Below, one piece after another: positions 1,829 to 39,298 of a stretch of DNA of 39,298 bases. The notes under the pieces are model-generated. The model was given only the letters and a program-made list of their open reading frames with translations, had not been told where the DNA came from and ran no database searches. Source of the stretch: an uncultured Bacteroidales bacterium. GTDB taxonomy: Bacteria; Bacteroidota; Bacteroidia; Bacteroidales; Paludibacteraceae. Made by a program: the position numbers and the translations under genes. The stretch lies in NCBI GenBank assembly GCA_900321605.1, contig ONWR01000017.1:1-39298 (forward strand), read 5' to 3'. Every line of letters starts with the position of its first letter. Position 1 is the stretch's first letter.

Positions 1829-1959
1829 ACTTAGGTCGCGAAAAGTGATAAAAAATCGTCGATTTCGCGAGCAATGTGGGTACTTAGGTCGCGAAAAGTG
1901 ATAAAAAATCATCAATTTCGCGAGCAATGTATGTACTTAGGTCGCGAAAACGAGCAAAA
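1829..1959. repeat. 53-bp tandem repeat, about 2.5 copies, with internal inverted repeat
   Basis: Copies lie at 1829-1881 and 1882-1934, with a partial copy at 1935-1959. Each full unit holds an inverted repeat TCGCGAAA...TTTCGCGA; copy 1 also has an inner palindrome AAATCG-T-CGATTT that is partly lost in copy 2. The array sits in the 309-base divergent gap between the ATPase gene and the AraC-type gene, immediately upstream of the ATPase promoter. The rest of the gap holds the two promoters and AT-rich DNA. The array could be an operator or a relic of a mobile unit that travels with this ATPase family. Confidence 0.9.
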
Positions 1960-4387: not shown

Positions 4388-4418
4388 TATTCATTATTCA
4401 TTAATCATTATTCATTAA
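4388..4418. repeat. Short tandem repeat (ATTCATT)
   Basis: Imperfect copies of a 7-8 base ATTCATT/ATTCATTA unit fill the leader just before the ATG at 4426. It is one of several unrelated short tandem repeats found at gene borders in this window. Confidence 0.75.
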
Positions 4419-9356: not shown

Positions 9357-12300
9357 ATGAAACACATTTTTAACCGTTTGACAGTCATCATAGGACTGCT
9401 CGTTATGTTCGTAGGAAGCGCATTGGCTACGAACAGTTTCCTGGAAGAAACCCAGAACTACAGCGTCACGCCCAAAGGCAACGGCGTAGTGCATTTCAAG
9501 ATTCCTATCTGGGCCTACGGCCGTGTGAACAACTATCGTCTGGGCTACGGAACTTCGCTCTGGTATTCCGGTACGTACAACAAGACCCCGACGTCAGGCG
9601 TAACCCATTTTATGTATATCCGCAGTACGGACACGCAGAACACCTCTGACCCCAATAAGAACAGCACGGCGGAGATCAGAGTGAGCAAGGGAACCGTGAA
9701 AGTGACCAAGACATCGGACGGCGGCACGAAGCAGATAGATTCGGGTACGGACTATCAGAAAGTAGAACTCTCGGCGCAGAAATCGATGGACGGCAGTTAT
9801 CAACGCGTCGTCTTCCTTGAATTTGACTGGTACGTGCCCCAAGACCTGTCGACTACGACTTTCTATGCCGGCGTAGACGGATTGATCTACAAATATGATG
9901 CGAATGATAAATCGGAAATACAGGAAATGAATATATGGTATTGTTTCCCGGATAGGTTGGACGGCGCGGATGATCTGATAGCACCGGAGTTGCAGTCTCC
10001 CTATCTGTATTTCATGAACGAAGAAGGCAATCCGGTACGCGAAGGCAAGGCGGCGATTCCATACGTGGTATATCAGACCCCGAAGTCGTATACCACATCG
10101 TTTAATTCGCAGAGCGTGACGGTGAACAACCGTGCGGGTTCGATCATCGTGGCTACCGCCGACACTATCCAGCGCAATTTCAAGGCGACCTTTACGGTGC
10201 AGCCCAACTCGGATGTATCGACTACGGTGGAGCGTTCGACAAACGCCATCAATATCCCTGCGTATCACCGAATATATGATTTCGCAGTGAAAGAGGGCAA
10301 GGATGCGCAGGGTAGTTACACGGGCGCCAAGACGCTGAGTTGGACGATACGCAATCCGCAGGCGGAGGACCTGATGAGTACCGACTATTTCGAGATACAG
10401 CGTGCGCAGAAAGAAGACTATTCGGATGCGCAAACAATTCAATTGCTGCCCATGACTCCGGATAGCAGTACATACACCTATGTGGACGAGACGACCGTAC
10501 CGGCAGGAACGGCTGTGACAGAAGACTCACTCCAACGATACTACAATATAGACTATAAAAACTATGTGCTCAAGTCTGAAGAAGGCGAACCGCTCTATTC
10601 GATGAATCTGCAATTGGTAGCGAAGACGAAGACTCAACCGGCGCAGCCTATTTACTACCGCGTACGTCGTGCTTCCGCCTCGGCATGGGACTGGGATCAT
10701 CCTTTCGCCCAGCAGACGACATTGCAGCAGCACAGCTATCTTGCGCCGTTGGCACTCACGCAGCCGAACTACACGCTTGACCCTGATTTTGAGAACAACC
10801 GTAAGGTACATTTCAATATCAAAATTGACAATGCTCAGATAACCGATGCGCCTATTGTACCCGCAGACTGCGAGCTTACTCCTGAGTTCGTGGAGAATAA
10901 GATGCCGATCGATTCGATTACGCTCAATGTAAATGTTACACCGGCATTCCATGAGGCAGTTAGCTACATCAAGTTCCAAGTCGGCGACCGACACGAAGTT
11001 AATGTGTGGGGTGAAGGCATGCAAACCATCAAGCTGCCGTACTGTAGTTCCGGGTCCTTACGGATTGATATAAAAGGTAGATGGTACAATACCTATTTGT
11101 TTAACGGATGCGGCAATGATTTTGTCTTGGAAATTATCAGACTGACTGAGCAGAAGATGGTTGAGATGGACGGCGGTCTATATACGTTTATCCTTGATAG
11201 CCGAGATCGTTATAGTGGCGGATGGGTGTATGAGGGCCATGCGGAATTTACCCCCAACCAAGGAACGAAAGTGATACCTGCCGTCGTAACCGATCGCTGG
11301 AACGAGGTGAAGGATACGGTGAAACAGATGATGTTCGAGAAACTGACGGAGAAGTACCGCACGACGGTCTATGGCCGCTGTACATGGGACCGCGGCGCGA
11401 AACTGGTGTTGAGGCGCACATCCGTAGAGTCGGGAAGCGAGATAGAGTTCATCGTTCCGCAGGACAGCATCCGCCGCAACGAAGACGGCAGCTGGACGGC
11501 GCACTTCACGGATATAGCGAACATGGCTTGTACGCACTATACCTACACGGCGCAGATAGACCCGTCGGATGCCGAGTTGCGCTTCCAGAACCCGAATTCC
11601 ACGGCGCCGGTAGCCATCAACGGACCGTCGCTTTATTTCGATGAGGCAGCGACGATCACTTCCTTTACCGCTTCGCAGGGACTGACGGACGGAGAGAACA
11701 AACGCGGCGTGCAGCTAAAATGGTCGGCCTCCGCGCCCTCGGTGGATGAATTCATATTGCTGCGTATTCCGCAAGGCAGCAGCAACGTGCCGGATACGAT
11801 CTATCGCGGCGCAGAGGTTACATGGTTTGACCAAACAGCGGTACCGGGACAGCGCTACGAATATACCGTTGTAGCGCGCTATGAGTGCAACGGTCGGCGC
11901 ACCGACAACAATGCTACGGCGATAGGATGGCGTACCGAGTTCGGCGAGATACGCGGTGTAGTTACGCAGACCGACAACTCGGGCATGTCGGGCGTGACGG
12001 TCAGCCTGAGCGGCAACGGTCTCACGCGCAGCATGGTCACGGGCGCCAGCGGTGCGTTCGTCTTTGACAGCCTGCCGTATGATGTGACTACCGGAGCGAT
12101 CTATACGATAACGCCTACCTCGCAGTACGGTATATTCAGCTATAACAACACCTCTTCGGGCGTAGCATCCGTGGCGCTGGACAGCAAGAACTGTATCGCG
12201 AGCGGCGTGAACTTCGTCAATACCAGTTGTGTCCGCCTCACGGGACGCGTGCTCTATGACATGAGTACGATACCGGTAGCCGACGCGTATTTCCTGCTGA

Positions 12301-15300
12301 ACGGCGATACGATCCGCCGCAACGGAAAGGCCTATCTCACCGGCATAGACGGTTCGTTCGAACTGACGGTACCGAAATCGATGCCTTGCCGTCTGCAGGT
12401 AGCGAAAGCCGGACATACGTTCAAGAACGACGGATGGCTCTTCGTGACGGAGAACGATACGACCTTCTCGCTTGTCAAACCGCTGGACGGCGTTCGGCTG
12501 TATGACCGGACGAAGGTACGTCTCGTCGGACGTGTAGCCGGAGGTATCGACCAGCAGCAACTGCCGCCTGCTTTGGGGTTGGGTAAGAATAACCTCGGTG
12601 ATGACCTCCAACTGGTGCTGATGCTCGAGGGTGACAATACCGCTCATGTGGTGCATAACCCTGACGACCTGACGCAGGACACGCTCCAATTCGCGATAGA
12701 TAACCTCAGCGGACATACATCAACTATCTATCAGCAGAAACGCATTGTCATTCGTCCGGACAGCAAGACGGGCGAATATGCGGTGGATCTCTATCCGGTG
12801 AAATACAAAGTGACACAGGCGACCGCCAATGGTTATGCGACGCTGCTGAATATCGAAGCGGGTGCACCGACCGTCAACCTGATTAACGCTCCGCTGCAGA
12901 CGCTGCGTTCCGACAGCGGCGATTTGCACGCGACGTACAACGCCGTGTATGACTGTATCTACCGCAGTCCGATGCAGGTAGGCGTAGTGCAATACCAAGC
13001 CGGCATGCCGCAGGACGGCTACGGCGAGAAGACGCTACCGGTATCTAACCTGCTGAACCTCAGTAAAAATGTGGACGTCTATACGGTGGATAGCACGGGC
13101 GCAGTGGAATACCTGCTTGACTATCCTGTGTTCCAGCAGGGACGTACCTATCAGTTCCGCGTCTCGGTGTATGAGGATTACATTTACAACAACGATCCCA
13201 CCTCCAGTACCGACCGCGTTCGTCTGAACGGCGGCCAGCTGAAGATATACAACGGTTTCAAATCGGGCGAGAACACCGCTACGGCGATCTATCCGCTCAA
13301 CGAAGCCGGCGAGGCGAATATACAGGTAGAGGTAGATAACCTCAGCCTATTGGCTACAGGCTCGGATGCGCTCCGTACGCTCGACCTGTCGATAGAGCGC
13401 GAAGGCGGTTCGATCGACTATAGGGCGATACGCGGATTTGTGACGGGTAACTATGTCGAGAACGGCGATATCCGCGCTGTCACAGCTGACATCAAGGTGT
13501 TGGATGTGCTGCGCGACCCGCCGGGAAGCGGAAGTAGCTGCTCACTGGAGAAAGGCGCCAGCTATAAATCGGTTAACCCGTTTGCCATCACCCTTAAGGC
13601 CGGTATCAACCTCAATTTCAAGATAGGTACGGCGTACAACCAGTCCGTCGGAGTGGTGAGCACGGTGTCGTATAGCGGCGTGAGCGTTTCGGCCGGCAAG
13701 ACCAACGCATTCACGTTGCCGCTGGTAGCTTCGATCAAGTACAACTCGTCCTATACCTATACCTATAGCAACAGCGAGAAGATCTCTACCGGTTCGTCCC
13801 CGTCGTTTGTGGGCGCGGATGCGGATGTGTTCGTAGGTCATGCTACGGAAGTGCTCTACGGTACGATACGCGCCGTGCGCATCATCGATGATACCACCTA
13901 TCAGTTGCGCAAGCCGGCCATCGATGCAGGCTATATCAAGGAGATAGCGTCTGCGCGAACGGCGGACGGCACGCCTTATCACTTTGTGATCGCCAAAGAG
14001 ACGGTGCTCGGTAGCCGCGTAGGTACGGATTTCGCCTATACGCAGGGACATATCGCCAACAAGATCCTTCCGAATCTGGTAGCCCAGCGTAACGCGTTGC
14101 TCGTCAATGCGGCAGACTCTGCGGCGGCGCAAGAGATAGCGAACGCACGCAAGGCGGCAGTATATTGGAACATTGCTACCGACGAATCGAAGATAGGTCT
14201 GGACACAACGACCTACAAAGTGATCAAACCGACGAACGTACCGGACTTCGTGGAAGTAGACAAAGTGAAAGCTATCAATAATGTCATTGTCAAATGGGTA
14301 AGCATCCTGGCGACCAACGAACGGGAGAAAGTGGTAGCACGTCAGTCCGGCAAGCATGTAGGTACGTTTAGCGTAAGCGGCGGTACCAACCATGACTATA
14401 GCGAGAGCTACTCAGCAGACTGGTCAATGGGCGGTAATATGTCATATGGTACACCGGATTTCGGTACGTTGTTCAAACAAGTCTCTTCCGGTATCGAATT
14501 GGTCGGCTCAATGCCGGTAGGAAAAGCCATTATCAATCTTCTGAACGACCGTATGAAGGCAGGGGATAATGGCGCCATTATCGATATCAACGGCGTAGCT
14601 GTCGGCGCACAGTGGAAAACCGAAGTGACGCCGGTATTCAACATCGACACGGATATACCGTTGACTGACCACAGCGGAAGCGAGTCGGTATCGCGTAAGA
14701 TAAGCTTCAACATCGTGCCTGACTCCTACGGCTATACCACAGTCAGCGTCTATCGCGCGCCGGCAGACAGTGTGTTCCTCAAGCAGATAGGCAGCTGGAA
14801 GCAATATATGAATATGTACTCCAATGCGACGGACTATAAATACGGCAGTTTCATCTTCTTCCAGGAAGGCGGTTCGAGTCACTGTCCGTACGAGGGAGAG
14901 GTGCGCACGAAATGGTACAAACCGGGTATGTTCGTCTTGGGCAACGCAACGCTGCCGATGGAGAACCCCAAGATTACGCTCGACCAGCACTCTATCAGCA
15001 ATGTGCCTGCAGACCAAGCGGCTGTGTTCCGTGTTACGCTCGTCAACGATAACCTCAATACCGACGGCCGTCCCGCCAAAGGGCAATATCTATCGTTGTC
15101 CGTAGAGCCGCAGACGAACCCCGACGGAGCCATCATCCTCATGGACGGCGAGCCGCTTACCTCGGCTTCGACGCTCACCTTCTTCTGCGAACCGGGCGTA
15201 CCTATCGTCAAGACCATGCAGGTGAAGCGCGGCATCGTGGACGACTATGAGGATCTGACGATCAAACTGGCTTCCACTACCTGTGCGTCTATCGGTACAC

Positions 15301-18300
15301 TTGCGAAGTTCTCCGTTCATTTCATGCCGGAGTCTTCGCCCGTCAGCATTTCCTATCCGCGGGATAAATGGGTGATGAATACCCTCTCTGCGCGGGATTC
15401 TATCGGATATTATCTGCCTATTACCATTGATGGCTTTAATATCCATCATAAGAACTTCGACCATATTGAGTTCCAATACAAGCTCTCCACGGAGAACAAC
15501 GATGCGTGGGTCAATGCCTGCTCGTTCTACGCGGACGACAGTCTCTACAACATCGCTACGGGCAACAAGGCGAAGATTGAGAACGGACGTATCACACCGT
15601 TCCGTTTCTACGGCGAGCGTGACCCCAAAGAGTTGGATTATGACCTGCGTGCTGTATCCTTCTGCCGCTACGGCTCGGGCTTCGTCACCAAAGAGTCACC
15701 CGTCATCAGTGGTATCAAAGATACCCGTCCGCCGGTGCTCTTCGGCAAACCGCTGCCCGCTAACGGCATCCTCAAACTTGACGGGGATATCAAACTGCGG
15801 TTCAGCGAACCGATTGCCGGTAACTGGCTCGACGAGGATAACAACTTCCAGATACTCGGCGTGACCAACGCCACCGGTATCACGCAGACCACCTCGCTCT
15901 ATTTCGACGGCCAGGCCGACCACTACGCCGCCAGCCAGGCTTCGCGTGAGCTGGCCATCACCGATCTTACCATCGACATGCTCATCAAACCCGCGGAAAA
16001 GAACCGCGAGATGATCCTCTTTGCCCATGGTAACGAGGAGGAGTCCTTCACGTTCAGCCTTACGGCTGACAACCGACTCAAACTCTCTACCGAGTCCGAC
16101 GGTAAGCACAAAGAGTACCTCTCCAAGCAAATGGAAGAATTATCCGCCAATGACTTCACACGGGTGATTATGACCTACGAACTATTCGAGAATGAAATTC
16201 ATTTCTATGCCGGAACGAAGGATGTCACCGACAATGACTTCATCGGTTGGGTACTGCAGGACGAAGCAGCTCCGCTGCGTTTCGGCGCCGGACTGAAGGG
16301 CGAGAATCCTTTCCATGGCAACCTGATGGAGGTGCGCCTATGGACGAAGGCACTCGGTCCCGCAGAGATAGCCAACACCCACCTGCATCGCCTCACCGGC
16401 TATGAGCACGGACTGCTGGCCTACTATCCGCTCTCGGAGAGCAAGGGTAACACGATGGACGATCTCGCCTCCGGTGCTACACTTACCGCCAAGGGACTCT
16501 CGTGGACCAATCCGCAAGGCATATCGCTTGCTACCAACGGTAACAAGGTGCGCCTGCAGCCGACGCTCTTCTCGCGCACCGAGGCCGAGGACTACACCTT
16601 TATGTGCTGGTTCCGAAGCGATAACGCTTCGTCGGATAAGATATCCCTCTTCGGTACCGCGATGGGTGACTCTGTCACCATGCAGCTCGCGTTCGGCGAT
16701 GGGGCTATCCGCTTTACGGCAGGCGATGTGGATCAGTTCGCTTCGGCGGATCTGACCGACGGCAACTGGCACCACTGCGTCCTCGTCATCAGCAAGACCT
16801 ACAACAGTGGTACGCTTTATATCGACAACCGACTCATCCTCATGTTCCCCACTATCGGCATCGGCGCACTCGCCGGCACGTCCGTATGGATAGCCAACGG
16901 ACTGGAGGGTAACATCGACGATGTATGTCTCTTCGAGCAAGCTCTGCCCGCTGAACTCATCGCCGAGTACGGCAAACAGACGCCTAACGGCGAGGAGATG
17001 GGACTGATTAACCTCCTCACTTTCTCGCGCGTCAAACGCAATTCCTCGGGTGTCATGGAGCAAGTCTTCAGCCCCGATAACCAGCGCGTCTTCCGCGATG
17101 CCAACGGCAATGTGGTGAACAAAGTACAACCGCTGCTCATCGACGATCTCACTACGCAGGCCGACAAGAGCAATTATGCGCCTGTACGCGACAGGGGACT
17201 GCTCACGAACCTGCCGTTCAACTGGACTTATCAGGAATCCGACCTGCTCATCAATATCAAGACGCAGCCGCGTGAGATCAACAAACGCACGATGTTCCTC
17301 ACTGTACGCGATGTGGAAGACCTCAACGGCAACCGACTGCCCTCACCGGTCATGTGGACCGTCTATGCGAACCTCAACAGCATCGTCTGGGGTGAACGCT
17401 CCTTGCAGATGGTGATGGACTATGAGCAGTCTTCCGCAGTGCGCAGTTCGATCACGATTGTCAACCAAACCGGTATGACACGTCAATACACGATTGACCA
17501 CTTGCCGAAATGGCTCTCCGTTTCGCCCGCACAGGGAACGCTCGAAGCAGAGGACGAGAAAACGGTTACCTTCACCGTAACGGAAGTGCTCAAACCCGGT
17601 ATCCACAACCATGTCGTCTATCTGACCGATGATCAGGGATTGTCCGAACCGCTACTCATCGAGGTGGAGGTCATTGCGGAGTGCCCGTACGAGGAACCCG
17701 AGACCGGCAAGTTCCCGTATAACATGTCGCTCTGCGGACAGGTCAAGATCGGAGATGTCTTCGATACCGACCCCGAAGACAAAGTGATCGCGCTCTATAA
17801 TAATGAGTGCGTAGGCATGGCGAATGTGGACTTCGACAGGATCACCAATAAGTCCAGCGTTCACCTCACCGTCTTCGGCGATGATAAGATGAACCGCAAG
17901 CAGATTCATTTCCGCCTCTGGCAAGCCTCCACCGGTAAGATGTACAACCTCTCTGCCGACAGGAATATCCTCTTTGCCCACGGCTTTGTCTATGGTTGCG
18001 ACGGTAATCGCGTCGTCTTCACTGCCGGAGGTAGCGAGACCCAGAATATATCCCTCCATTCCGGATGGAACTGGATCTCTACCAACCTCGACCTGTCGGC
18101 TACCAAGGGTGATCTCAACACTTGCGTCACTGCCGCCAAACCTTGGAGCGATGCGGACCTCATCAAGAACCCCAACTCGCGGCAGTTCAGCTCCTACGAC
18201 GCCGCGTCCGATGCCTTCGTCGGCTCGCTCGCAGGACTCCATTTCTCGCAGATGTACATGATGTATGCCGCGCAGGAGAACACGCTCCAGATCGCCGGAG

Positions 18301-19019
18301 AAAAACTCTCCGCCGACTCCCTCTCTATTCGCGTACGAGGTGATGGACAATGGAGCCCGATGCCCTGTCTGTTCGACGAACCCGTCTCGGTCACCAAGGC
18401 CCTCACGTCCTATTACGACTATGCGTCACAAGGCGATATGATCAAGGCCCATAACCGCTTCGCTTATTTCTCTGAAGATAAGAAATGGGAAGGAGACCTT
18501 ACCTCCCTCCGGCCGGGAGAAGGATACCTCTTCCGACGTCTGGGACTTGGCAGCAAGGAGATCAAGTTCTACCGCCAGTCTAGCAGCGCACCGAAACGGA
18601 GTATAGACCGCTACGCTGACAGAGCACAGAATACAGACCTATTCAATAATCCCCAAGCGGCATCGAACATGACGATGATAGCGACATTGGACGATGGACA
18701 ATGGACATTGGATAAAGGACAATTGAAAGTATATGTGGGCGGTGAGTTATCCGCTATAGCAAGCCCGATCGACTCATTGTACTTTATCACGATCCAGAGT
18801 GACCGGATAGGCGAACTGCGCTTCGAAATAGCCGGCGAAAGGCTAATGGTGGATGGCGAAAGTATTCGCTATACCGCAGACAGCCACTACGGCACGCTCA
18901 AGGCACCGATCGTGCTCCGCAAAGCGGACGAAACAGGCGTCTATAAGATCCTTGAAAATAACCACGTAGTAATCATCCGAAACAATGAAAAATATGATGT
19001 CACTGGAAAGAAATTATAA
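9357..19019 (+). CDS. Giant secreted multi-domain protein, 3220 aa, with LamG-like and Ig-like domains
   Basis: Signal peptide 1-24 (cut after S-A-L-A). By eye the order is: beta-rich N-terminal region; fibronectin III-like about 770-850; carboxypeptidase-regulatory-like domains at about 862-930, 958-1026 and possibly from 1052; a long unassigned stretch; bacterial Ig-like (D-T-R-P-P-V-L-F) about 2119-2172; LamG/concanavalin-like domains about 2178-2343 and 2392-2540; second Ig-like about 2557-2670; BACON-like about 2675-2775 (L-P-K-W-L-S-V-S-P); a module with A-L-Y-N-N-E-C-V-G about 2790-2890; then S-G-W-N-W-I-S and P-G-E-G-Y-L-F-R-R segments typical of Bacteroidales secreted proteins. It ends K-I-L-E-N-N-H-V-V-I-I-R-N-N-E-K-Y-D-V-T-G-K-K-L, the short motif also found at 103 and 20358. 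No catalytic motif is evident; adhesion or cell-surface structure is inferred. The next gene overlaps its 3' end by 35 bases. Confidence 0.85.
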   Translation: MKHIFNRLTVIIGLLVMFVGSALATNSFLEETQNYSVTPKGNGVVHFKIPIWAYGRVNNYRLGYGTSLWYSGTYNKTPTSGVTHFMYIRSTDTQNTSDPNKNSTAEIRVSKGTVKVTKTSDGGTKQIDSGTDYQKVELSAQKSMDGSYQRVVFLEFDWYVPQDLSTTTFYAGVDGLIYKYDANDKSEIQEMNIWYCFPDRLDGADDLIAPELQSPYLYFMNEEGNPVREGKAAIPYVVYQTPKSYTTSFNSQSVTVNNRAGSIIVATADTIQRNFKATFTVQPNSDVSTTVERSTNAINIPAYHRIYDFAVKEGKDAQGSYTGAKTLSWTIRNPQAEDLMSTDYFEIQRAQKEDYSDAQTIQLLPMTPDSSTYTYVDETTVPAGTAVTEDSLQRYYNIDYKNYVLKSEEGEPLYSMNLQLVAKTKTQPAQPIYYRVRRASASAWDWDHPFAQQTTLQQHSYLAPLALTQPNYTLDPDFENNRKVHFNIKIDNAQITDAPIVPADCELTPEFVENKMPIDSITLNVNVTPAFHEAVSYIKFQVGDRHEVNVWGEGMQTIKLPYCSSGSLRIDIKGRWYNTYLFNGCGNDFVLEIIRLTEQKMVEMDGGLYTFILDSRDRYSGGWVYEGHAEFTPNQGTKVIPAVVTDRWNEVKDTVKQMMFEKLTEKYRTTVYGRCTWDRGAKLVLRRTSVESGSEIEFIVPQDSIRRNEDGSWTAHFTDIANMACTHYTYTAQIDPSDAELRFQNPNSTAPVAINGPSLYFDEAATITSFTASQGLTDGENKRGVQLKWSASAPSVDEFILLRIPQGSSNVPDTIYRGAEVTWFDQTAVPGQRYEYTVVARYECNGRRTDNNATAIGWRTEFGEIRGVVTQTDNSGMSGVTVSLSGNGLTRSMVTGASGAFVFDSLPYDVTTGAIYTITPTSQYGIFSYNNTSSGVASVALDSKNCIASGVNFVNTSCVRLTGRVLYDMSTIPVADAYFLLNGDTIRRNGKAYLTGIDGSFELTVPKSMPCRLQVAKAGHTFKNDGWLFVTENDTTFSLVKPLDGVRLYDRTKVRLVGRVAGGIDQQQLPPALGLGKNNLGDDLQLVLMLEGDNTAHVVHNPDDLTQDTLQFAIDNLSGHTSTIYQQKRIVIRPDSKTGEYAVDLYPVKYKVTQATANGYATLLNIEAGAPTVNLINAPLQTLRSDSGDLHATYNAVYDCIYRSPMQVGVVQYQAGMPQDGYGEKTLPVSNLLNLSKNVDVYTVDSTGAVEYLLDYPVFQQGRTYQFRVSVYEDYIYNNDPTSSTDRVRLNGGQLKIYNGFKSGENTATAIYPLNEAGEANIQVEVDNLSLLATGSDALRTLDLSIEREGGSIDYRAIRGFVTGNYVENGDIRAVTADIKVLDVLRDPPGSGSSCSLEKGASYKSVNPFAITLKAGINLNFKIGTAYNQSVGVVSTVSYSGVSVSAGKTNAFTLPLVASIKYNSSYTYTYSNSEKISTGSSPSFVGADADVFVGHATEVLYGTIRAVRIIDDTTYQLRKPAIDAGYIKEIASARTADGTPYHFVIAKETVLGSRVGTDFAYTQGHIANKILPNLVAQRNALLVNAADSAAAQEIANARKAAVYWNIATDESKIGLDTTTYKVIKPTNVPDFVEVDKVKAINNVIVKWVSILATNEREKVVARQSGKHVGTFSVSGGTNHDYSESYSADWSMGGNMSYGTPDFGTLFKQVSSGIELVGSMPVGKAIINLLNDRMKAGDNGAIIDINGVAVGAQWKTEVTPVFNIDTDIPLTDHSGSESVSRKISFNIVPDSYGYTTVSVYRAPADSVFLKQIGSWKQYMNMYSNATDYKYGSFIFFQEGGSSHCPYEGEVRTKWYKPGMFVLGNATLPMENPKITLDQHSISNVPADQAAVFRVTLVNDNLNTDGRPAKGQYLSLSVEPQTNPDGAIILMDGEPLTSASTLTFFCEPGVPIVKTMQVKRGIVDDYEDLTIKLASTTCASIGTLAKFSVHFMPESSPVSISYPRDKWVMNTLSARDSIGYYLPITIDGFNIHHKNFDHIEFQYKLSTENNDAWVNACSFYADDSLYNIATGNKAKIENGRITPFRFYGERDPKELDYDLRAVSFCRYGSGFVTKESPVISGIKDTRPPVLFGKPLPANGILKLDGDIKLRFSEPIAGNWLDEDNNFQILGVTNATGITQTTSLYFDGQADHYAASQASRELAITDLTIDMLIKPAEKNREMILFAHGNEEESFTFSLTADNRLKLSTESDGKHKEYLSKQMEELSANDFTRVIMTYELFENEIHFYAGTKDVTDNDFIGWVLQDEAAPLRFGAGLKGENPFHGNLMEVRLWTKALGPAEIANTHLHRLTGYEHGLLAYYPLSESKGNTMDDLASGATLTAKGLSWTNPQGISLATNGNKVRLQPTLFSRTEAEDYTFMCWFRSDNASSDKISLFGTAMGDSVTMQLAFGDGAIRFTAGDVDQFASADLTDGNWHHCVLVISKTYNSGTLYIDNRLILMFPTIGIGALAGTSVWIANGLEGNIDDVCLFEQALPAELIAEYGKQTPNGEEMGLINLLTFSRVKRNSSGVMEQVFSPDNQRVFRDANGNVVNKVQPLLIDDLTTQADKSNYAPVRDRGLLTNLPFNWTYQESDLLINIKTQPREINKRTMFLTVRDVEDLNGNRLPSPVMWTVYANLNSIVWGERSLQMVMDYEQSSAVRSSITIVNQTGMTRQYTIDHLPKWLSVSPAQGTLEAEDEKTVTFTVTEVLKPGIHNHVVYLTDDQGLSEPLLIEVEVIAECPYEEPETGKFPYNMSLCGQVKIGDVFDTDPEDKVIALYNNECVGMANVDFDRITNKSSVHLTVFGDDKMNRKQIHFRLWQASTGKMYNLSADRNILFAHGFVYGCDGNRVVFTAGGSETQNISLHSGWNWISTNLDLSATKGDLNTCVTAAKPWSDADLIKNPNSRQFSSYDAASDAFVGSLAGLHFSQMYMMYAAQENTLQIAGEKLSADSLSIRVRGDGQWSPMPCLFDEPVSVTKALTSYYDYASQGDMIKAHNRFAYFSEDKKWEGDLTSLRPGEGYLFRRLGLGSKEIKFYRQSSSAPKRSIDRYADRAQNTDLFNNPQAASNMTMIATLDDGQWTLDKGQLKVYVGGELSAIASPIDSLYFITIQSDRIGELRFEIAGERLMVDGESIRYTADSHYGTLKAPIVLRKADETGVYKILENNHVVIIRNNEKYDVTGKKL

Positions 19020-20524: not shown

Positions 20525-21013
20525 ATGAACAATATGTTACAGGTAAAAAAATCTAACAGACCAAAGGTCGGTCTAACAGCGTTAGCGGTCGCACTTCTAA
20601 CAGTGCTAACGGTCTTCTTTGCGGGCTGTAAGAAGGACAAAGAAAGCGAACCGGTTGATCCTTTTGTTACTCCGGGAGACACACCGAATCCCAATTGGGT
20701 CATCACCGGCGATAATGACATGTCCGCATCCATGACGTCAATCGTCAAAGTCTCCTTTAGTAAGTCGAAAGGTACCCTCGCTGCTTTCATCGGCAACGAC
20801 TGTTGCGGTATCGCTACCTACAAAGCGGACTACGACCTTTATTGGCTCTATATCTCACCCGCTGCGGAGGGCGGCGGTAACGTCCAACTGCGTTTCTATT
20901 CTCCGGACCTGAAACGCATCTTCGTGGCTACCTCCACTTTCCCCTTCCGCAACGATACTCCGCTTGGTTATATTACCGCTCCCTACACACCGGAGTGGAA
21001 AAAAATGCAATAA
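20525..21013 (+). CDS. Lipoprotein with surface-protein module, 162 aa
   Basis: The signal peptide ends F-F-A-G-C (C35) after an unusually long, repeat-encoded hydrophobic core. The mature part has a Pro/Asp-rich linker and then one module with V-K-V-S-F-S, L-A-A-F-I-G-N-D-C-C-G-I-A and V-Q-L-R-F-Y-S-P-D. The same order (V-I-A-L-Y-N-N-E-C-V-G-M-A ... I-H-F-R-L-W) occurs near residues 2790-2890 of the 3220-aa protein, so both carry one domain family, found in Bacteroidales secreted proteins. It lies 14 bases after the 51-aa gene and 1 base before the transporter gene. The DNA of the signal peptide region (20552-20616) belongs to the dispersed mini-hairpin repeat. Confidence 0.8.
   Translation: MNNMLQVKKSNRPKVGLTALAVALLTVLTVFFAGCKKDKESEPVDPFVTPGDTPNPNWVITGDNDMSASMTSIVKVSFSKSKGTLAAFIGNDCCGIATYKADYDLYWLYISPAAEGGGNVQLRFYSPDLKRIFVATSTFPFRNDTPLGYITAPYTPEWKKMQ
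20552..20616 (+). repeat. Mini-hairpin repeat array inside the lipoprotein signal sequence
   Basis: Three units of the form TCTAACA + hairpin + GG: hairpins GACC-aaa-GGTC, GC-gtta-GC and GT-gcta-AC, with TCGCACT between the last two units. The array ends in TCT. It encodes residues about 10-30 of the lipoprotein (L-T-A-L-A-V-A-L-L-T-V-L). It belongs with 22876-23030, 28522-28588 and 36309-36431. Confidence 0.75.
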
Positions 21014-22875: not shown

Positions 22876-23030
22876 AACAGACCGTCCTTCGGACTGACAG
22901 AATACAGACCGGCTGCGCCTGACAGAATACAGACTTAATTACACCATGCGGATGGTAAATCAGTCTAACAGCGAAGCGGTCTAACAGTGAAACGGTCTGT
23001 CAGCGAAGCGGTCTAACAGTGAAACGGTCT
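22876..23030 (+). repeat. Composite mini-hairpin repeat between rsfS and ftsH
   Basis: Part 1 is two units AGACC-[hairpin]-TGACAGAATAC with hairpins GTCC-ttc-GGAC and GGC-tgc-GCC. Part 2 is a 32-base linker (22931-22962) containing ACCAT-gcgg-ATGGT. Part 3 is four 16-bp units GTCTAACAG[CT]GAA[GA]CG (22963-23026; the third reads GTCTGTCAG) and a final GTCT. The element fills nearly all of the gap, from the rsfS stop codon to 15 bases before the ftsH ATG. A second copy lies at 36309-36431. Confidence 0.9.
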
Positions 23031-25085: not shown

Positions 25086-27870
25086 CTCCTTGCTGCTATT
25101 CGTAGCAATGAGCCTTGCGGCGCAAGAGGCGCCGGAGAAACTGCCGATCGACCCGCAAGTTCGGTACGGCAAGTTGGACAACGGATTGACCTATTACATC
25201 CGTCATAACGAGCAACCCAAACAACGTGCTGAGTTCCACATCGCACAGGCCGTGGGTGCCATCCTCGAGGAGGATCATCAGAACGGTTTGGCGCACTTCT
25301 TGGAGCACATGGCGTTCAATGGTACCCAGCATTTCCCGGGCAAAGGAATCATCAATTATTTCGAGTCCGTGGGTGTGAACTTCGGTGGAAACATCAACGC
25401 TTACACCTCCATTGACGAGACCGTCTATCGTCTCTCGGACGTGCCGACCTACCGTGCCGGTATCATCGATAGTGCGTTGCTGGTCATGCATGACTGGAGT
25501 TGCGGTCTGCTCCTTCTGGACGAGGAGATCGATGCCGAGCGTGGCGTGATCCTCGAGGAGTGGCGAACCGGACGTACCGCACGCAGACGTATATGGAAGA
25601 GACTGAACGAGCTCATGTACCCGGGTACGCAGTACGCGAAACGCGATGTCATCGGCGACACCGCCGTCATCAATAACTTCGAGTACCAAGCGCTCCGTGA
25701 CTACTACCATAAATGGTACGGTCCCGACAATCAGGCAATCATCGTAGTCGGTGACATCAACGTGGACAGTATTGAAGCGAAGATACAAGCCCTTTGGGCA
25801 GATGTGCCTCGTCGCACTAACTACGGAGAGCGTCCGATCTATACCATCAACCATAACGACAAACCGCTCGTAGCTATCGTCACCGACCCCGAAGCCGAAG
25901 GTAGCCGAATCACGTTCGAGTATAAGTTCGACCAGCTGCCCGAGATGCTGCAAGGTACCGCACAGGAGTATATGCTCAACGGAATGCGTGACTTGGTGTG
26001 CGAAATGCTCAATAACCGTTTCTCGGAACTGGCTCTCAACCCCGATGCTTCTTTCGCAGGAGCTCTGTCGTACTACGGCGAGACAGCGAAGAAGATGGAC
26101 GCTTTTGAGGTGATCTTTGTGCCCAAAGAGGGACGTGAGACCGATGCTCTCAACGACCTGATCTTCCAACTGGAGAAGATGCACCGTTACGGCTTCACCA
26201 ACGCGGAGTTGGAGCGCGCCAAGAACGACAAACTCAACGCGATGGAGAAAGCTTACAACGAGCGTAACACCCAGAAAAACATTACCCTCGCTCGCGAATG
26301 TATCCGTCATTTCGAGAACGGCGAGTCGATGCCGGGTATCGAATGGGAGCACGATTTCGTGTTGGCAACGATGCCGCTCGTGTCGCTGGATAATGTCAAC
26401 AGCGTAGCGAAAGCGCTCATTCATGCAAACCCGACCGTAGCTGTCTCCGGTCCCGAGAAAGAGGGTATTAACATCCCGTCTGAGGCAACGATCTTAGCAG
26501 CTCTCTCTGCTCAGAGCGAGTTGGCTATCGAGGCACCGCAGGAGGAGCAGGTGGACACCGAGCTCGTGAAGAAAGCGCCGCGTAAGGGCAAGATCAAGAA
26601 CTTCCGCGAGAACACCACCATCGGTACCGTCGAATGGACGCTCTCCAATGGTATCAAGGTGGTCTTCAAACAGACCGATTTCAAGGCAGACGAGATCCTT
26701 ATGCAGGCTTTCTCGGACGGTGGAATGTCGCTCGTGAAGACCGAAGATCTGCCTTCGGCTGAGTTGGCTACGATGATCGTGGAGATGTCCGGTATAGGCT
26801 CTTTCAACGCTACCCAATTGGTAAAAGCCCTCTCGGGTAAGACTGTCTCCGTTTCGCCGGAGATAGACGAGTACTTAGAGCGCTTGACCGGCTCGTCTTC
26901 CGTCAAGGATTTTGAGACGATGCTCCAACTCATGTATCTCTATTTCACCGCTCCGCGTCGTGACGAGGAGGCTTATCAGACGACGCTTAACGTCCTTCGC
27001 AGTCAACTCGCTAACCGCGATAAGAACCCGAAGATCACGTTCTCCGACTCCGTACAGATGATGTCCACGAATCACTCGGAGCGTACGATCCTCATGACGA
27101 TGGAGACGCTTGAACGCGTGTCGCTGGACAAAGCCCTTGAGGTGTACAAAGAGCGTTTTGCGAACCCTGCGGACTTCACCTTCACCTTCGTCGGTAACAT
27201 CAACCCCGCTGACCCGAAGGTCAAAGACCTGATCTGTCAGTGGCTCGGTGGTCTGAAGACCAAGAAGACCCGTGAGCAGGTAGTGGATCATCATATTCAG
27301 GTGGCTCCGGGCAAGCAGAAAAACTACTTCAGCCGTAAGATGGAGACCACCACCGCCTCTAACCGCATCCAATATACCTCGTACGACATGCCGTGCTCCA
27401 TGGCTACCGAGCTCAATATGGAGATGATCGGACGCATCCTCTCGACCCGCTATCTGGAGTCGATCCGTGAGCGTGAAGGCGGTTCGTACGGTGTAGGTAC
27501 CTACGGCTACGCGTCGATGGTTCCCTCTCAGAAAGCAGTGCTCCTCATGCAGTTTGATACCGACCCGCTCAAACAGGAGCGTCTCATGCAAATCATCCAC
27601 GAGGAGATAGGTACCATCATTGCGAACGGTCCGTTAGTGAACGACTTGCAGAAAGAGAAAGAGTCGATGCTCAAGGATTTCCAAGAGGACATGGAGAAGA
27701 ACTCATGGCTGCGTTACGCGCTGCGGATGTACTACGGACATGACTTGGATTATATCAACGCCTATCGTCCCGCAGTGGAAGCCATCACGGCTGAGACCGT
27801 TCAGGCTACCCTCAAGCAACTCGTTGCTGCCGGCAACGTCTTCGAGGTAGTCATGTTCCCGGAGAAGTAA
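25066..27870 (+). CDS. M16 family zinc metallopeptidase (PqqL/pitrilysin-like)
   Basis: This 934-aa protein has a cleavable signal peptide (about 1-20, ending S-L-A-A-Q) and is likely periplasmic. The inverted zinc motif H-F-L-E-H is at 77-81, with the third ligand E158 in D-A-E-R-G, at the spacing expected for the family. The second half is an inactive M16 repeat starting near residue 520 (G-T-V-E-W-T-L-S-N-G-I-K-V-V-F-K-Q-T) and containing a substrate-binding R-x-x-x-x-S-Y-G-V type segment near 800 (R-E-R-E-G-G-S-Y-G-V). Length is normal for two-domain Bacteroidota members. It starts within the last 20 bases of ftsH, so periplasmic and membrane proteolysis genes are translationally linked. 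Confidence 0.92.
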   Translation: MKKLLLNSLLLFVAMSLAAQEAPEKLPIDPQVRYGKLDNGLTYYIRHNEQPKQRAEFHIAQAVGAILEEDHQNGLAHFLEHMAFNGTQHFPGKGIINYFESVGVNFGGNINAYTSIDETVYRLSDVPTYRAGIIDSALLVMHDWSCGLLLLDEEIDAERGVILEEWRTGRTARRRIWKRLNELMYPGTQYAKRDVIGDTAVINNFEYQALRDYYHKWYGPDNQAIIVVGDINVDSIEAKIQALWADVPRRTNYGERPIYTINHNDKPLVAIVTDPEAEGSRITFEYKFDQLPEMLQGTAQEYMLNGMRDLVCEMLNNRFSELALNPDASFAGALSYYGETAKKMDAFEVIFVPKEGRETDALNDLIFQLEKMHRYGFTNAELERAKNDKLNAMEKAYNERNTQKNITLARECIRHFENGESMPGIEWEHDFVLATMPLVSLDNVNSVAKALIHANPTVAVSGPEKEGINIPSEATILAALSAQSELAIEAPQEEQVDTELVKKAPRKGKIKNFRENTTIGTVEWTLSNGIKVVFKQTDFKADEILMQAFSDGGMSLVKTEDLPSAELATMIVEMSGIGSFNATQLVKALSGKTVSVSPEIDEYLERLTGSSSVKDFETMLQLMYLYFTAPRRDEEAYQTTLNVLRSQLANRDKNPKITFSDSVQMMSTNHSERTILMTMETLERVSLDKALEVYKERFANPADFTFTFVGNINPADPKVKDLICQWLGGLKTKKTREQVVDHHIQVAPGKQKNYFSRKMETTTASNRIQYTSYDMPCSMATELNMEMIGRILSTRYLESIREREGGSYGVGTYGYASMVPSQKAVLLMQFDTDPLKQERLMQIIHEEIGTIIANGPLVNDLQKEKESMLKDFQEDMEKNSWLRYALRMYYGHDLDYINAYRPAVEAITAETVQATLKQLVAAGNVFEVVMFPEK

Positions 27871-28019
27871 TTAACAATTAATAATTAACAATTCACAATT
27901 CACAAGGCGTCCTATTGAGTTTTGTACAAACTGAAATGTCCGTACTTATTCTTTTAGTCCGTACCAAACTCCGTGAGCCCTTTGTAAATTGTACATTGTA
28001 CATTGTAAATTGTACATTG
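27871..28019. repeat. Short tandem repeats before lpxB
   Basis: An AATTAACAATT/AATTCACAATT array at about 27871-27905 and a second array of TTGTAAATTGTACATTGTACA type at about 27980-28019 flank a non-repetitive stretch. The second array contains the TTG proposed as the lpxB start codon, and if translated upstream would read N-C-T-L-Y-I-V-N-C-T-L. Confidence 0.8.
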
Positions 28020-29150
28020 AGTAAGTTTTTTCTCATAGCAGGCGAAGCGTCGGGAGATCTGCACGCGGCAGCGCTCATAGAGCAGCTGCTGCGGCTTGAT
28101 CCCGAGGCGCAGTGCGCAGGACTCGGCGGCGACAAAATGGCTGCTGCCGGGTGCCGCCTATATCAACATATTCGCCAAATGGCGTTTATGGGCTTTGCTG
28201 CGGTATTGGCTAATCTCGGTCAGATCCGCCGTAACTTCCGCATCGCGCAGCAAGCACTCCTCGATGAGAAACCCGACGCGCTGATCCTCATTGACTATCC
28301 GTCCTTTAACCTCCGTATAGCGAAGTTCTGCCGTACGCATCTGCCGAAAACCAAGATCTACTATTATATCCCGCCTAAAGTGTGGGCTTGGAAAAAACGC
28401 CGCATTCACCAGATCGCCGCTCTTTGCGATGAGGTATTGGGTATCTTCCCCTTCGAGCCTGCTTTCTATGCCCAATACGGCTACTCCTGTACCTACGTCG
28501 GCAATCCCACCGCCGAAGAGATCTTACAGCGTAGCGGTCTTACAGCGAAGCGGTCTAACAGTGAAACGGTCTTACAGCGCAGCGGTCTCAACTCCATCGC
28601 CATTCTCCCTGGCTCCCGTCCGTCGGAGATCAGTCATTGCCTGACGAAGATGCTCGATGCTGCAAGGCAGTATCCCGACTATCGTATCGTGGTCTGTGCT
28701 GCCCCGGGAATAGACGATGCGTTCTATGCGCCCTACCTGCGTGAAGGGGAGACGCTGACGAGGGACACTTATTCCGCCGTGCAGCAAGCAGCTGCAGCAG
28801 TAGTCAACTCCGGTACCGCTACCTTGGAGACCGCTCTGATCGGTTGTCCGCAGGTAGCCGTCTATCATCTGGCTCTCTCACCCCTCATCGGTCTGATCCG
28901 TTGGGCACAACCTCTGGTGTTCTCTATCCCCTATTTCACCTTGGTGAACATCATCGCAGGCAAACAGGTCATCCGTGAGTGCGTTGCCAATGATTTCAAG
29001 ACCAAGAAAGTGGCTGCCGAACTCGGTCGTTTGCTCACCGACGAGGCATACCAAAAAAATATGCTCGCGTCCTACGAGCATATTCGTTCTCTCTTGGGCA
29101 CTCAGCCCGCTGCGGCTACTGCCGCTTCTATCATCACATCGAAACCATAA
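28017..29150 (+). CDS. lpxB: Lipid-A-disaccharide synthase LpxB, with repeat-encoded linker
   Basis: LpxB condenses UDP-2,3-diacylglucosamine with 2,3-diacylglucosamine 1-phosphate to form lipid A disaccharide at the inner membrane. Marks: F-F-L-I-A-G-E-A-S-G-D-L-H-A at the start, Y-Y-I-P-P-K-V-W-A-W-K-K, Y-V-G-N-P-T-A-E-E, I-A-I-L-P-G-S-R-P-S-E-I and N-S-G-T-A-T-L-E-T-A-L. No ATG fits the conserved N-terminus. The likely start is TTG at 28017 (377 aa, normal length); ATG at 27936 would add 27 repeat-encoded residues. About residues 169-191 (L-Q-R-S-G-L ... L-Q-R-S-G-L), between the two Rossmann-like halves, are encoded by the mini-hairpin repeat. The 3' end overlaps the converging gene by 17 bases. 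Confidence 0.93.
   Translation: MSKFFLIAGEASGDLHAAALIEQLLRLDPEAQCAGLGGDKMAAAGCRLYQHIRQMAFMGFAAVLANLGQIRRNFRIAQQALLDEKPDALILIDYPSFNLRIAKFCRTHLPKTKIYYYIPPKVWAWKKRRIHQIAALCDEVLGIFPFEPAFYAQYGYSCTYVGNPTAEEILQRSGLTAKRSNSETVLQRSGLNSIAILPGSRPSEISHCLTKMLDAARQYPDYRIVVCAAPGIDDAFYAPYLREGETLTRDTYSAVQQAAAAVVNSGTATLETALIGCPQVAVYHLALSPLIGLIRWAQPLVFSIPYFTLVNIIAGKQVIRECVANDFKTKKVAAELGRLLTDEAYQKNMLASYEHIRSLLGTQPAAATAASIITSKP
28522..28588 (+). repeat. Mini-hairpin repeat array inside lpxB
   Basis: Four 16-bp units TCT[TA]ACAG[CT]GNA[GA]CGG at 28522-28537, 28538-28553, 28554-28569 and 28570-28585, with hairpins GC-gta-GC, GC-gaa-GC, GT-gaa-AC and GC-gca-GC, then TCT. Sixteen is not a multiple of three, so successive units are read in different frames, yet the gene stays open. 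Confidence 0.9.
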
Positions 29151-30148: not shown

Positions 30149-30247
30149 TCTGAAATCTGAATTCTGAAAATTCGCTCTGCGAATAATCGTTCGAGCAAAG
30201 CGAGATAAGAAATCTTAATTCTTAATTTTTAATTTTTAATTTTTAAT
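30149..30247. repeat. Mini-hairpins and TTTTTAA tandem repeat between surE and glmM
   Basis: TTCGC-tct-GCGAA (30171-30183) is followed by a second GC-aaa-GC type mini-hairpin (near 30193-30200). Next comes a CTTAATT/TTTTTAA tandem repeat from about 30213 to 30247 that runs over the glmM stop codon (30236-30238). The hairpins resemble the triloop style of the dispersed repeat but not its TCTAACA frame. Confidence 0.65.
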
Positions 30248-31609
30248 TACTTCCATCACTTGTTGTGCAAGCTCGTTGGCACGCTCCATCGTCGCCGCCT
30301 CTGAATAGACGCGGATGATCGGCTCGGTGTTCGATTTGCGCAGATGAACCCATCCGTCCGCAAAATCGATCTTTACGCCGTCACGGTCATTGACGCGTTC
30401 GTTCCGATAGAGCTCTTTCACGCGTGCAAGGATGGCATCTACGTCCGTCTCCGGCGTCAGGTCTATACGGTTCTTGCTGATACAGTAGTCGGGCAGGGTA
30501 CGACGCAGTTCGCTCACTTTCATATTCAGATGTGCCAAATGGCTGAGGAACAGCGCAATACCTACCAGCGCATCGCGACCGTAGTGACACTCCGGATAGA
30601 TCACTCCACCGTTGCCTTCACCTCCGATAACCGCGTGTACGCGTTTCATCTCCGCTACGACATTCACTTCGCCTACCGCACTGGCACTGTACTCCCCGCC
30701 ATGAGCTCTCGTCACGTCGCTCAACGCACGGGTACTGGACATATTGCTGACCGTGTTGCCCGGGGTGTGACGCAGGATATAATCTGCTACGCTGACCAAG
30801 GTATATTCCTCGCCGAACATCTCTCCGTTCTCGCAGATGATCGCCAGACGATCGACATCCGGATCCACTACAAAACCGACATCCGCCTTACCGCTCTTGA
30901 GCAGGTCGCTGATCTCGGTCAGGTGTTGAGGCAGCGGTTCGGGATTGTGGGGAAAACGACCATCCGGAGTGCAGTTCAGCTCGATGATGTTCGTTACGCC
31001 TACGGCTTTCAGGATCGCCGGTATAGCCAATCCGCCTACCGAGTTCACGCAGTCGATAGCTACCGTGAAATTCTTCTTCCGGATCGCCTCGGTATCTACT
31101 AATTTCAGTTTCAGTACTTGCTCTATATGGTAGGGCAGGTAGTCCTTGTGGGTCATGTGTCCCAACTCATCCACCTCCGCAAAGCTGAAATCCTCTTTCT
31201 CTGCGATCGACAACACTCCCTTGCCTTCGGCATCGTTGAGGAACTCACCCTTCTCGTTGAGCAACTTGAGGGCGTTCCACTGTTTGGGGTTGTGACTTGC
31301 GGTGAGGATGATACCACCTGCTGCGTGTTCGCCGGTAACGGCTAACTCGGTCGTCGGCGTACTTGCCAAACCGATATTCACTACGTCGTAACCCATCCCC
31401 ATGAGCGTACCGCACACGATCTGCTCGACCATGTGACCGCTCAGACGCGCGTCACGACCGACTACAATCACCTTGTTCTCCGGCATAGCTGCACGGCGTT
31501 GCGTAGCATAAGCAGCGGTGAAACGAACTATATCTACGGGATTCAGACCCTCTCCTACGCGACCACCAATAGTGCCGCGGATTCCTGAAATAGATTTTAC
31601 TAAACTCAT
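30236..31609 (-). CDS. glmM: Phosphoglucosamine mutase (GlmM-type phosphohexomutase)
   Basis: This 457-aa alpha-D-phosphohexomutase has the catalytic phosphoserine S105 in T-A-S-H-N-P, metal loop D-P-D-V-D-R at 249-254, sugar loop G-G-E-G-N-G-G at 329-335, and phosphate-binding R-K-S-N-T-E-P near 425. The N-terminus, S-I-S-G-I-R-G-T-I-G, is the Bacteroidota form. GlmM converts glucosamine-6-phosphate to glucosamine-1-phosphate for UDP-GlcNAc, peptidoglycan and lipid A; a phosphomannomutase role cannot be excluded by motif alone. It is the last gene of a three-gene operon, 2 bases after the DUF4827 gene. Confidence 0.9.
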   Translation of the reverse strand: MSLVKSISGIRGTIGGRVGEGLNPVDIVRFTAAYATQRRAAMPENKVIVVGRDARLSGHMVEQIVCGTLMGMGYDVVNIGLASTPTTELAVTGEHAAGGIILTASHNPKQWNALKLLNEKGEFLNDAEGKGVLSIAEKEDFSFAEVDELGHMTHKDYLPYHIEQVLKLKLVDTEAIRKKNFTVAIDCVNSVGGLAIPAILKAVGVTNIIELNCTPDGRFPHNPEPLPQHLTEISDLLKSGKADVGFVVDPDVDRLAIICENGEMFGEEYTLVSVADYILRHTPGNTVSNMSSTRALSDVTRAHGGEYSASAVGEVNVVAEMKRVHAVIGGEGNGGVIYPECHYGRDALVGIALFLSHLAHLNMKVSELRRTLPDYCISKNRIDLTPETDVDAILARVKELYRNERVNDRDGVKIDFADGWVHLRKSNTEPIIRVYSEAATMERANELAQQVMEVIKN

Positions 31610-32661: not shown

Positions 32662-32708
32662 CTATCGACCAACGACTAACGACTATCGACTATCGACCAA
32701 CGACTATT
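32662..32708. repeat. Short tandem repeat (ATCGACCAACGACT)
   Basis: Imperfect copies of a 7-base CGACTAT/CGACTAA/CGACCAA unit fill the whole gap between the stop codon of the hybrid sensor gene (32709) and the GTG of the FKBP-like gene (32661), both on the minus strand. Confidence 0.9.
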
Positions 32709-36308: not shown

Positions 36309-36431
36309 TTAGACCGTTTCACTGTTAGACCGTTTCACTGTAAGACCGATTTACCATCCGCATGGTGTAACTAGGTCTGTATTCTGTCAGTCCGAAGGAC
36401 GGTCTGTACTCTGTCAGGCGTAGCCGGTCTA
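36309..36431 (-). repeat. Composite mini-hairpin repeat between rfbA and the HTCS gene
   Basis: Read on the minus strand: unit with GGC-tac-GCC hairpin, unit with GTCC-ttc-GGAC hairpin (each followed by TGACAGA[AG]TAC), the 32-base linker (36347-36378, three differences from 22931-22962), then two 16-bp GTCT[TA]ACAGTGAAACG units and GTCTAA. It starts within the rfbA stop codon and ends about 20 bases before the HTCS start, in the same orientation relative to the genes as the copy between rsfS and ftsH. The first two units are in swapped order. Confidence 0.9.

Positions 36432-37987: not shown

Positions 37988-39298
<1,311 letters not shown>

Follow-up and report, generated by a model that had tools for sequence, protein, structure and literature searches.

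A family of dispersed DNA mini-hairpin repeats within genes and intergenic gaps of gut Bacteroidales

In-frame repeats within conserved genes have been reported, in the parts of the literature considered here, from Rickettsia, Wolbachia, Methanocaldococcus and some REP-rich genomes (PMC2996958, PMC3733652). The Rickettsia palindromic elements (RPEs) are described as single elements of 100-150 bp with long stems, copies of which in orthologous genes often lie at the same place (PMC2229807, PMC3767692). Many of the intragenic REPs are found in repair genes, some of them supplying stop codons, and CGTC repeats have been reported in Bacteroidetes (PMC3733652). At the level of DNA structure, GNA or GNNA loops closed by at least two G-C pairs give extra-stable mini-hairpins, of which d(GCGAAGC) melts at 78 °C and is resistant to nucleases (PMC4686876). 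In-frame repeats of a mini-hairpin type now appear to be present in much of a genus of gut Bacteroidales.

The window analysed here is a stretch of 39,298 nucleotides from an uncultured Bacteroidales bacterium, ending in a partial bacterial 16S rRNA gene (37988-39298; Rfam). Two composite cassettes, at 22879-23030 (+ strand) and 36311-36430 (- strand), were read directly in its sequence. The first starts three bases past the TGA of rsfS with two long-spacer mini-hairpin units (22879-22905 and 22906-22930), which have the form AGACC-hairpin-TGACAGAATAC on the + strand and present GTCC-GAA-GGAC and GGC-GCA-GCC, respectively, on the - strand; these are followed by a hinge, or linker (22931-22966, + strand; TTAATTAC..GTAAATC, flanked by AGACT and AGTCT), and by four 16-bp mini-hairpin units (22967-23030, + strand) in the opposed orientation. 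The second comprises, again by direct reading, two 16-bp units (36311-36342, - strand), a hinge (36343-36373, - strand) and two long-spacer units with GNA loops on the + strand (36374-36430), and the AG of the first AGACC at its outer end completes the TAG stop codon of the upstream - strand gene. An earlier note on this DNA had described such a three-part layout, starting at a stop codon and with the second cassette differing from the first by a swapped order of the first two units, three changes in the linker and two instead of four 16-bp units, and all of this was confirmed by reading; the gene names given there for both gaps are likewise upheld by Pfam matches to RsfS, FtsH (M41/AAA), an RfbA-like nucleotidyl transferase and a hybrid two-component protein. 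What did not stand is the division of the cassette halves into two kinds of part. On the - strand, the + strand sequences GTCC-TTC-GGAC and GGC-TGC-GCC read as TCAG-stem-GNA-stem-CGGTCT, and since this is also the plan of the 16-bp units (ACAG-C-GAA-G-CGGTCT), a cassette amounts to a hinge with an array of the same hairpin family on either side, the two arrays being opposed. Within the window, the 16-bp motif has 11 matches with at most two mismatches (0.46 expected) and TGACAGAATACAGACC has five with at most three (0.23 expected), numbers well beyond chance.

The common plan of the units is a short, mostly G-C stem, a GNA or GNNA loop and constant flanks (for example GGTCT-N-ACAG or GGTCTGTATTCTGTCAG). 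In the genome to which the window belongs (2,315,634 bases in 64 contigs, 95% complete), the 16-bp unit occurs at 77 places with at most one mismatch (control 6) and the AGAATAC unit at 29 places with at most two (control 1). The linker core, with at most three mismatches, was found only in the two cassettes (two places, control 0), so that the possibility raised earlier that the two copies are the only ones in the genome is true of the linker core and not of the units. The hinge end GTAAATCNGTCT is present at nine places (control 0), of which six adjoin units and three do not. Three full cassettes were found in the genome, the third lying in frame within an ORF of the uvrD/pcrA type, as named from its sequence. 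A structure-aware scan of a 431,673-base sample of this genome, with flanks and stem fixed and the loop left free, yielded 95 raw units, compared with 1-25 for other motif pairs and nine for the reversed sequence. From these, 19 matches without the constant left flank were dropped, which leaves 76 units in 32 arrays, a set that owes part of its definition to that flank; among the kept matches, one (C50:108058) probably arose by chance, and unit density may be overestimated because the sample consists of long contigs that already had matches.

The unit loops conform to the pattern of d(GCGNAGC), the extra-stable DNA mini-hairpin. Among the 76 kept units, 66 have a loop of this type, GNA in 56 and GNNA in ten, and the remaining ten have others (AAA in six). 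Over all fetched loci, GNA makes up 90 of 105 three-base loops in the window's genome and 342 of 394 in other genomes, and GNNA 14 of 19 and 34 of 44 four-base loops, respectively, although these counts are partly ascertained, since the search patterns behind many of the loci already required G..A. Stem pairing was compared with shuffles under a pattern that held the loop to GNA and put no constraint on the stem bases. Of the one-base stems, 56 of 61 pair in the window's genome (shuffle mean 38.7, maximum 48) and 290 of 298 in other genomes (mean 185.9, maximum 206); the corresponding figures for two-base stems are 25 of 27 (mean 10.8) and 32 of 35 (mean 16.3), and three-base stems from other genomes pair in 18 of 19 cases (mean 6.7, maximum 12); for three-base stems of the window's genome, the figure of 9 of 16 is weak, being no better than the best shuffle (mean 4.2, maximum 9), and five-base stems pair in two of nine. 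The stems covary at the DNA level. Two G-C pairs are present in 45 of the 56 paired one-base-variable units of the window's genome, and a single one in the other 11, which are T-A variants. The conservation of GNA could reflect common descent and not structural need.

In the sample, 25 of the 32 arrays are located inside 20 ORFs called with a simple longest-ORF script and seven are intergenic, which, given a coding fraction of 0.91, makes arrays somewhat rarer in ORFs than predicted (p 0.024). Pfam searches with 16 of the 20 array-bearing ORFs gave 14 matches over the cut-off and one (SBF) below it, with one ORF left without a match; the genes concerned include LpxB, RecF (two arrays; matching SMC_N and the solved RecF), Dus, a PcrB-deaminase (pcrB-tadA fused), EPSP synthase/glycosyltransferase, Mur ligase/alanine racemase, SusD, LptE and a U32 peptidase. 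In the window itself, four 16-bp units lie in frame on the sense strand of lpxB (units 28522-28588 within 28017-29150, + strand), and a single unit with an AGAATAC spacer (18592-18640, - strand) is in frame near the 3' end of a 3220-residue ORF (9357-19019), the C-terminal flanks of which had no match in stretches from 15 congeners. Three further units (20558-20614, + strand) lie in an ORF (20525-21013) that has no Pfam match, and in this and two other ORFs the array can be read as the start of a putative lipoprotein signal peptide. These candidate signal peptides (window 20525-21013; L062:14292-15839; L076:11806-12375, LptE) appear to be partly built from repeats, and some of the stems code for hydrophobic residues. 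A Mur ligase/alanine racemase double-domain ORF (L079:5149-7023) holds a single antisense unit, also in frame.

Residence within genes follows a simple rule. As 16 equals 1 modulo 3, at least three units in a row pass through every reading frame. With TTACAG, CTACAG or TGTCAG as spacers, the GNA strand is free of stops in all three, whereas the strand opposite to it has stops in every frame and a TAACAG spacer brings stops to both strands; long arrays in genes are sense-only because only the GNA strand can be stop-free in all frames. Indeed, arrays of at least three units in the sampled ORFs are sense in 13 of 13 cases, and the 12 shorter ones are divided into five sense and seven antisense, the latter being single units or one pair at a gene end; taken together, 18 arrays are sense and seven antisense (p 0.04). 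Among the 80 loci listed from a scan of other genomes, 73 tandem arrays do not touch an edge, 47 of which are sense within a frame of at least 150 codons, none antisense and 26 neither.

Orthologous proteins carry different fillers at the same points. LpxB loci were read in 30 of 39 genomes with a match and UvrD loci in 30 of 37, and the fillers were assigned to the GNA family by eye, with the window's genome included. The LpxB linker is filled by GNA units at eight of 29 readable loci (five sense, two antisense with another spacer and one variant), and so are the PcrB-TadA junction in six of 15 cases, the PcrB loop in two of 15 and the UvrD linker in five of 30. The remaining species have, at the same point and in frame, other short repeats, non-repetitive linkers or almost nothing, the PcrB loop of some orthologues being reduced to a single residue between the flank matches. 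A single uninterrupted ORF encodes the PcrB-like and TadA-like enzymes in 14 of 15 genomes (L295-L309, the window's own included), with a stop in one case (L309), and the repeats that join them in frame mostly differ from species to species. We infer that the LpxB, PcrB-TadA, PcrB and UvrD sites are permissive and have probably been refilled repeatedly. It has to be considered whether the protein segments themselves are what is selected, with Ser/Arg/Gly/Ala-rich stretches serving as flexible linkers and the intergenic copies being spill-over. The in-frame filling of LpxB, PcrB-TadA and UvrD loops in several species would agree with this, as would one of the RecF arrays, which lies mostly opposite a 21-residue gap in the alignment to the solved RecF 5z67; the unrelated repeats or single-residue PcrB loop of orthologues, the existence of intergenic copies and the covariation of stems in DNA, on the other hand, make such selection quite unlikely as an explanation of the family. 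A model of LpxB predicted with AlphaFold from three sequences presents the array as coil that includes the lowest ten-residue block, but it is poor (mean pLDDT 53) and hence of no use as evidence.

Imperfect tandem repeats of period 7 also occur in the window (4388-4417, 27869-27905, 27982-28019, 30215-30248 and 32662-32707), and the 431,673-base sample has 63 rows of this period, at least one of which stems from a masked run of N; their motifs differ among species at the same gaps. Hairpin units directly adjoin GTCGTTR heptamers at several loci, and only two of 14 sampled heptamer arrays are near a unit.

The number of exact units varies from 0 to 209 over 37 genomes of the genus (the window's own included), with at least ten in 18 of the 37 and none in three, counts that are not exact since these genomes are 54-100% complete. 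Other families of the order gave a single exact-unit match in total over 24 genomes, and the tandem pattern, allowing one mismatch, was found in none of 394 other sampled genomes of the phylum. A scan of a wider contig collection gave at least 118 stretches with the tandem pattern, and among the 80 loci listed 11 lie, by title, outside Bacteroidales/Bacteroidia (Saprospiraceae four, Flavobacteriales four, Flavobacterium two and Nanoarchaeota one). The Nanoarchaeota case is a MAG contig (L112) in which an array of the same plan with the spacer GGTCTCACAG (834-940) stands directly after an rpL14-like ORF; its ORFs read as archaeal-type ribosomal proteins, and by our own estimate chance would not be expected to produce the exact 30-base tandem pattern. 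A phage or plasmid vehicle was considered and rejected, as the exact tandem pattern had no occurrence in viral contigs and a blastn search with cassette 1 against plasmids and phages returned no match.

At individual sites, presence and absence vary between relatives. The rsfS-ftsH cassette is absent from all 29 relatives in which the gap was read (36 had a match), and the rfbA-HTCS cassette from all nine of 15 fetched in which both flanks were found. In one relative (G004), the rsfS-ftsH gap holds a single hairpin with a different spacer; a sister form of the unit with the spacer CTCAAAGTAGAAAGACCG, similar to this hairpin, fills lpxB in G004 and G002 (L207, L208 and L241). The comparison with RUG454 (L135) covers 1.4 kb of ftsH at 98.7% identity, 6.8 kb at 96.8% and 409 bases of rsfS at 96%, yet the whole rsfS-ftsH gap differs and, together with the last rsfS codons, is occupied by unrelated heptamer-like repeats, whereas the lpxB array is retained with small changes. 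A 53-bp direct repeat in the window (1829-1950, 2.3 copies) has a 93% match upstream of rsfS in RUG454. The earlier proposal of modules that spread and rearrange between codirectional genes thus gains from these cassette-free alleles as regards spread and rearrangement, but not as regards placement, since 25 of the 32 sampled arrays lie in ORFs.

Genome comparison shows that the units are dispersed, tandemly arrayed and sometimes set as opposed halves around a TTAC..GTAAATC hinge. Their number is specific to the lineage, a fixed site may be occupied in one genome and empty in another, and conserved genes carry them in frame. Probable dispersal, growth in tandem, tolerance within reading frames and rapid turnover emerge from these comparisons. 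Plain slippage of tandem repeats at each site, with no dispersal, would account for the 16-bp tandem form and would suit a genome that is rich in period-7 tandem repeats, but it does not provide for the same unit and spacers at unlinked sites in both orientations or for sites that are empty in relatives; slippage in situ alone was rejected on these grounds and is highly improbable.

The folding of the arrays bears on whether they act as RNA. Both cassettes of the window fill gaps between codirectional genes in equal orientation, and the third, in the uvrD-type ORF, shares this orientation, an arrangement that would suit RNA-level regulators between codirectional genes such as terminators or stability or attenuation elements. 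Cassette 1 also folds better than its shuffles, in DNA (z -3.6 and -2.7 for the two strands) and weakly in RNA (z -1.75), the stability in DNA arising from pairing between its two halves; cassette 2 is weakly more stable than shuffles (DNA z -1.05 and -1.39; RNA z -1.03). Against this stands the lpxB array, which folds less stably than shuffles under ViennaRNA in DNA (z +2.1 and +3.5 for the two strands) as well as in RNA (z +3.1). Moreover, only 13 of 48 GNNA loops are GNRA (p 0.002), the RNA GNRA type not being preferred; Rfam at gathering score gave no match at the cassettes and only SSU rRNA in the window; most arrays lie in ORFs; and relatives keep the same gene pairs without cassettes. 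A known RNA family or riboswitch and an RNA hairpin function were accordingly rejected, and the action on the mRNA envisaged in the earlier note is not supported. Regulation at the RNA level is very unlikely as the reason for the family; a single copy may affect expression.

Instead, we consider it reasonably probable that these are self-dispersing DNA mini-hairpin repeats, tolerated wherever the reading frame survives, and that the cassettes in gaps are neutral or near-neutral insertions of the same element and not regulators. The hairpins would form in single-stranded DNA at replication forks or breaks, where they could promote slippage, leading to tandem growth, and template switching to repeat-bearing or micro-homologous sites, leading to dispersal. 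No dedicated transposase of the repeats' own would be needed for this, and copies that break genes would be removed by selection. Several results count against this reading: standard DNA energy parameters predict no fold for the lpxB array, three-base stems of the window's genome pair no better than the best shuffle, and arrays are slightly short in ORFs relative to the coding fraction.

Mobilization in trans is the obvious competing route, the units being REP- or MITE-like and moved by a hairpin-recognizing Y1 transposase (RAYT, IS200/605-type) or another transposase. The hairpin form, the dispersal and the opposed pairs recall REPs, elements linked to Y1 transposases (PMC3733652), and in two unit-rich genomes of the genus, G032 (55 matches) and G018 (42), a weak and partial match to Y1 does pass the cut-off. 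PF01797 (Y1), the sole transposase family searched, has no match in the window's genome (95% complete), and although 12 of the 41 genomes searched in the genus have a match above the cut-off, the family does not track unit number, being absent from G024, the richest in units (209), as well as from G002 (92) and G026 (46), and only below the cut-off in G007 (115); in addition, the units lack the GTAG tag. Transposition in trans is therefore unlikely, and Y1/RAYT mobilization was rejected as the main cause. The weak partial Y1_Tnp matches lie in open frames of about 330-440 residues in G003, G022, G032, G035, G061 and others.

Self-dispersal through single-stranded hairpins may be taken one step further, albeit only as a tentative and rather doubtful possibility, to a minimal replicator: a 16-bp unit without any enzyme of its own, the sole heritable trait of which is an extra-stable, nuclease-resistant GNA mini-hairpin. 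Such a unit might spread by protecting or priming single-stranded ends in repair, and its period relative to the codon and its stop-free strand would suit it to tolerance within genes. The same repeat turnover would then rewrite protein linkers and bridge fused genes (pcrB-tadA) across the genus, and would occur sporadically in other Bacteroidota and a DPANN archaeon. The family bears on the question of how repeats of such small size can spread when no transposase is in evidence. The unit is simple enough for synthesis and has a structural signature in common with a laboratory DNA hairpin, and the orthologous linkers with species-specific repeats constitute a natural experiment on the origin of protein segments and gene fusions.

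Searches of the literature on palindromic, in-frame and intragenic repeats in Bacteroidetes and Flavobacterium, with most subscription journals outside their reach, returned no description of this family, and searches with exact 14- and 15-mers of the unit found no papers. As far as the sections of the respective reports cited here allow, several described systems can be compared with it. The d(GCGNAGC) mini-hairpin is identical to the heptamer of the commonest unit and also has GNNA loops in common with the family, but it figures in that literature as a laboratory motif and not as a genomic repeat (PMC4686876). Yeast mitochondrial GC clusters are very small palindromes too, and they likewise proliferate, merge and shuffle, through a mechanism described as unsettled, but they belong to an organelle, and are 42-base palindromes with a putative target-site duplication (PMC4478555). 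PARCELs share the coding tandem repeats, the dyad symmetry and a patchy distribution among distant microbes, and differ in being 75-nt repeats in codon phase that encode 25-residue amphipathic domains (PMC2996958), whereas the period here is 16 bp, out of codon phase and read in three frames. Heptameric simple sequence repeats, reported to be over-represented in bacteria (PMC4692102), occupy the same gaps and linkers of the genus with their period-7 arrays, but have no hairpin unit and a period of 7 instead of 16.

The closest parallels are the REPs and the palindromic elements of Rickettsia and Wolbachia. REPs of the GTAG and CGTC super-families are short hairpins, form opposed pairs and are in part intragenic (PMC3733652). 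The present units form tandem head-to-tail clusters, are flanked by ACAG or TCAG and CGGTCT in place of a terminal GTAG, and show no association with Y1, with none in the window's genome. Nor do they have the CGTC tag, for which CGGTC is found, and their stems of 2-6 bp with mostly three-base loops are for the most part shorter than the reported 5-13 bp, or 8-9 bp with loops of four to five bases for the CGTC type (PMC3733652). With the Rickettsia and Wolbachia elements (RPEs/WPEs), the family has in common palindromes in gaps and in frame within conserved genes (PMC2229807, PMC3767692), as seen here in the 25 of 32 arrays spread over 20 ORFs. In place of elements of 100-150 bp with long terminal inverted repeats, it consists of tandem units that measure 16-27 bp and have stems of 2-6 bp and GNA or GNNA loops, three units covering all frames, and only the three cassettes reach 120-160 bp. 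Since the size, tag and transposase features of RPEs and REPs are lacking, the family is filed as neither; by analogy, it nevertheless appears to work like the RPEs and the intragenic REPs.
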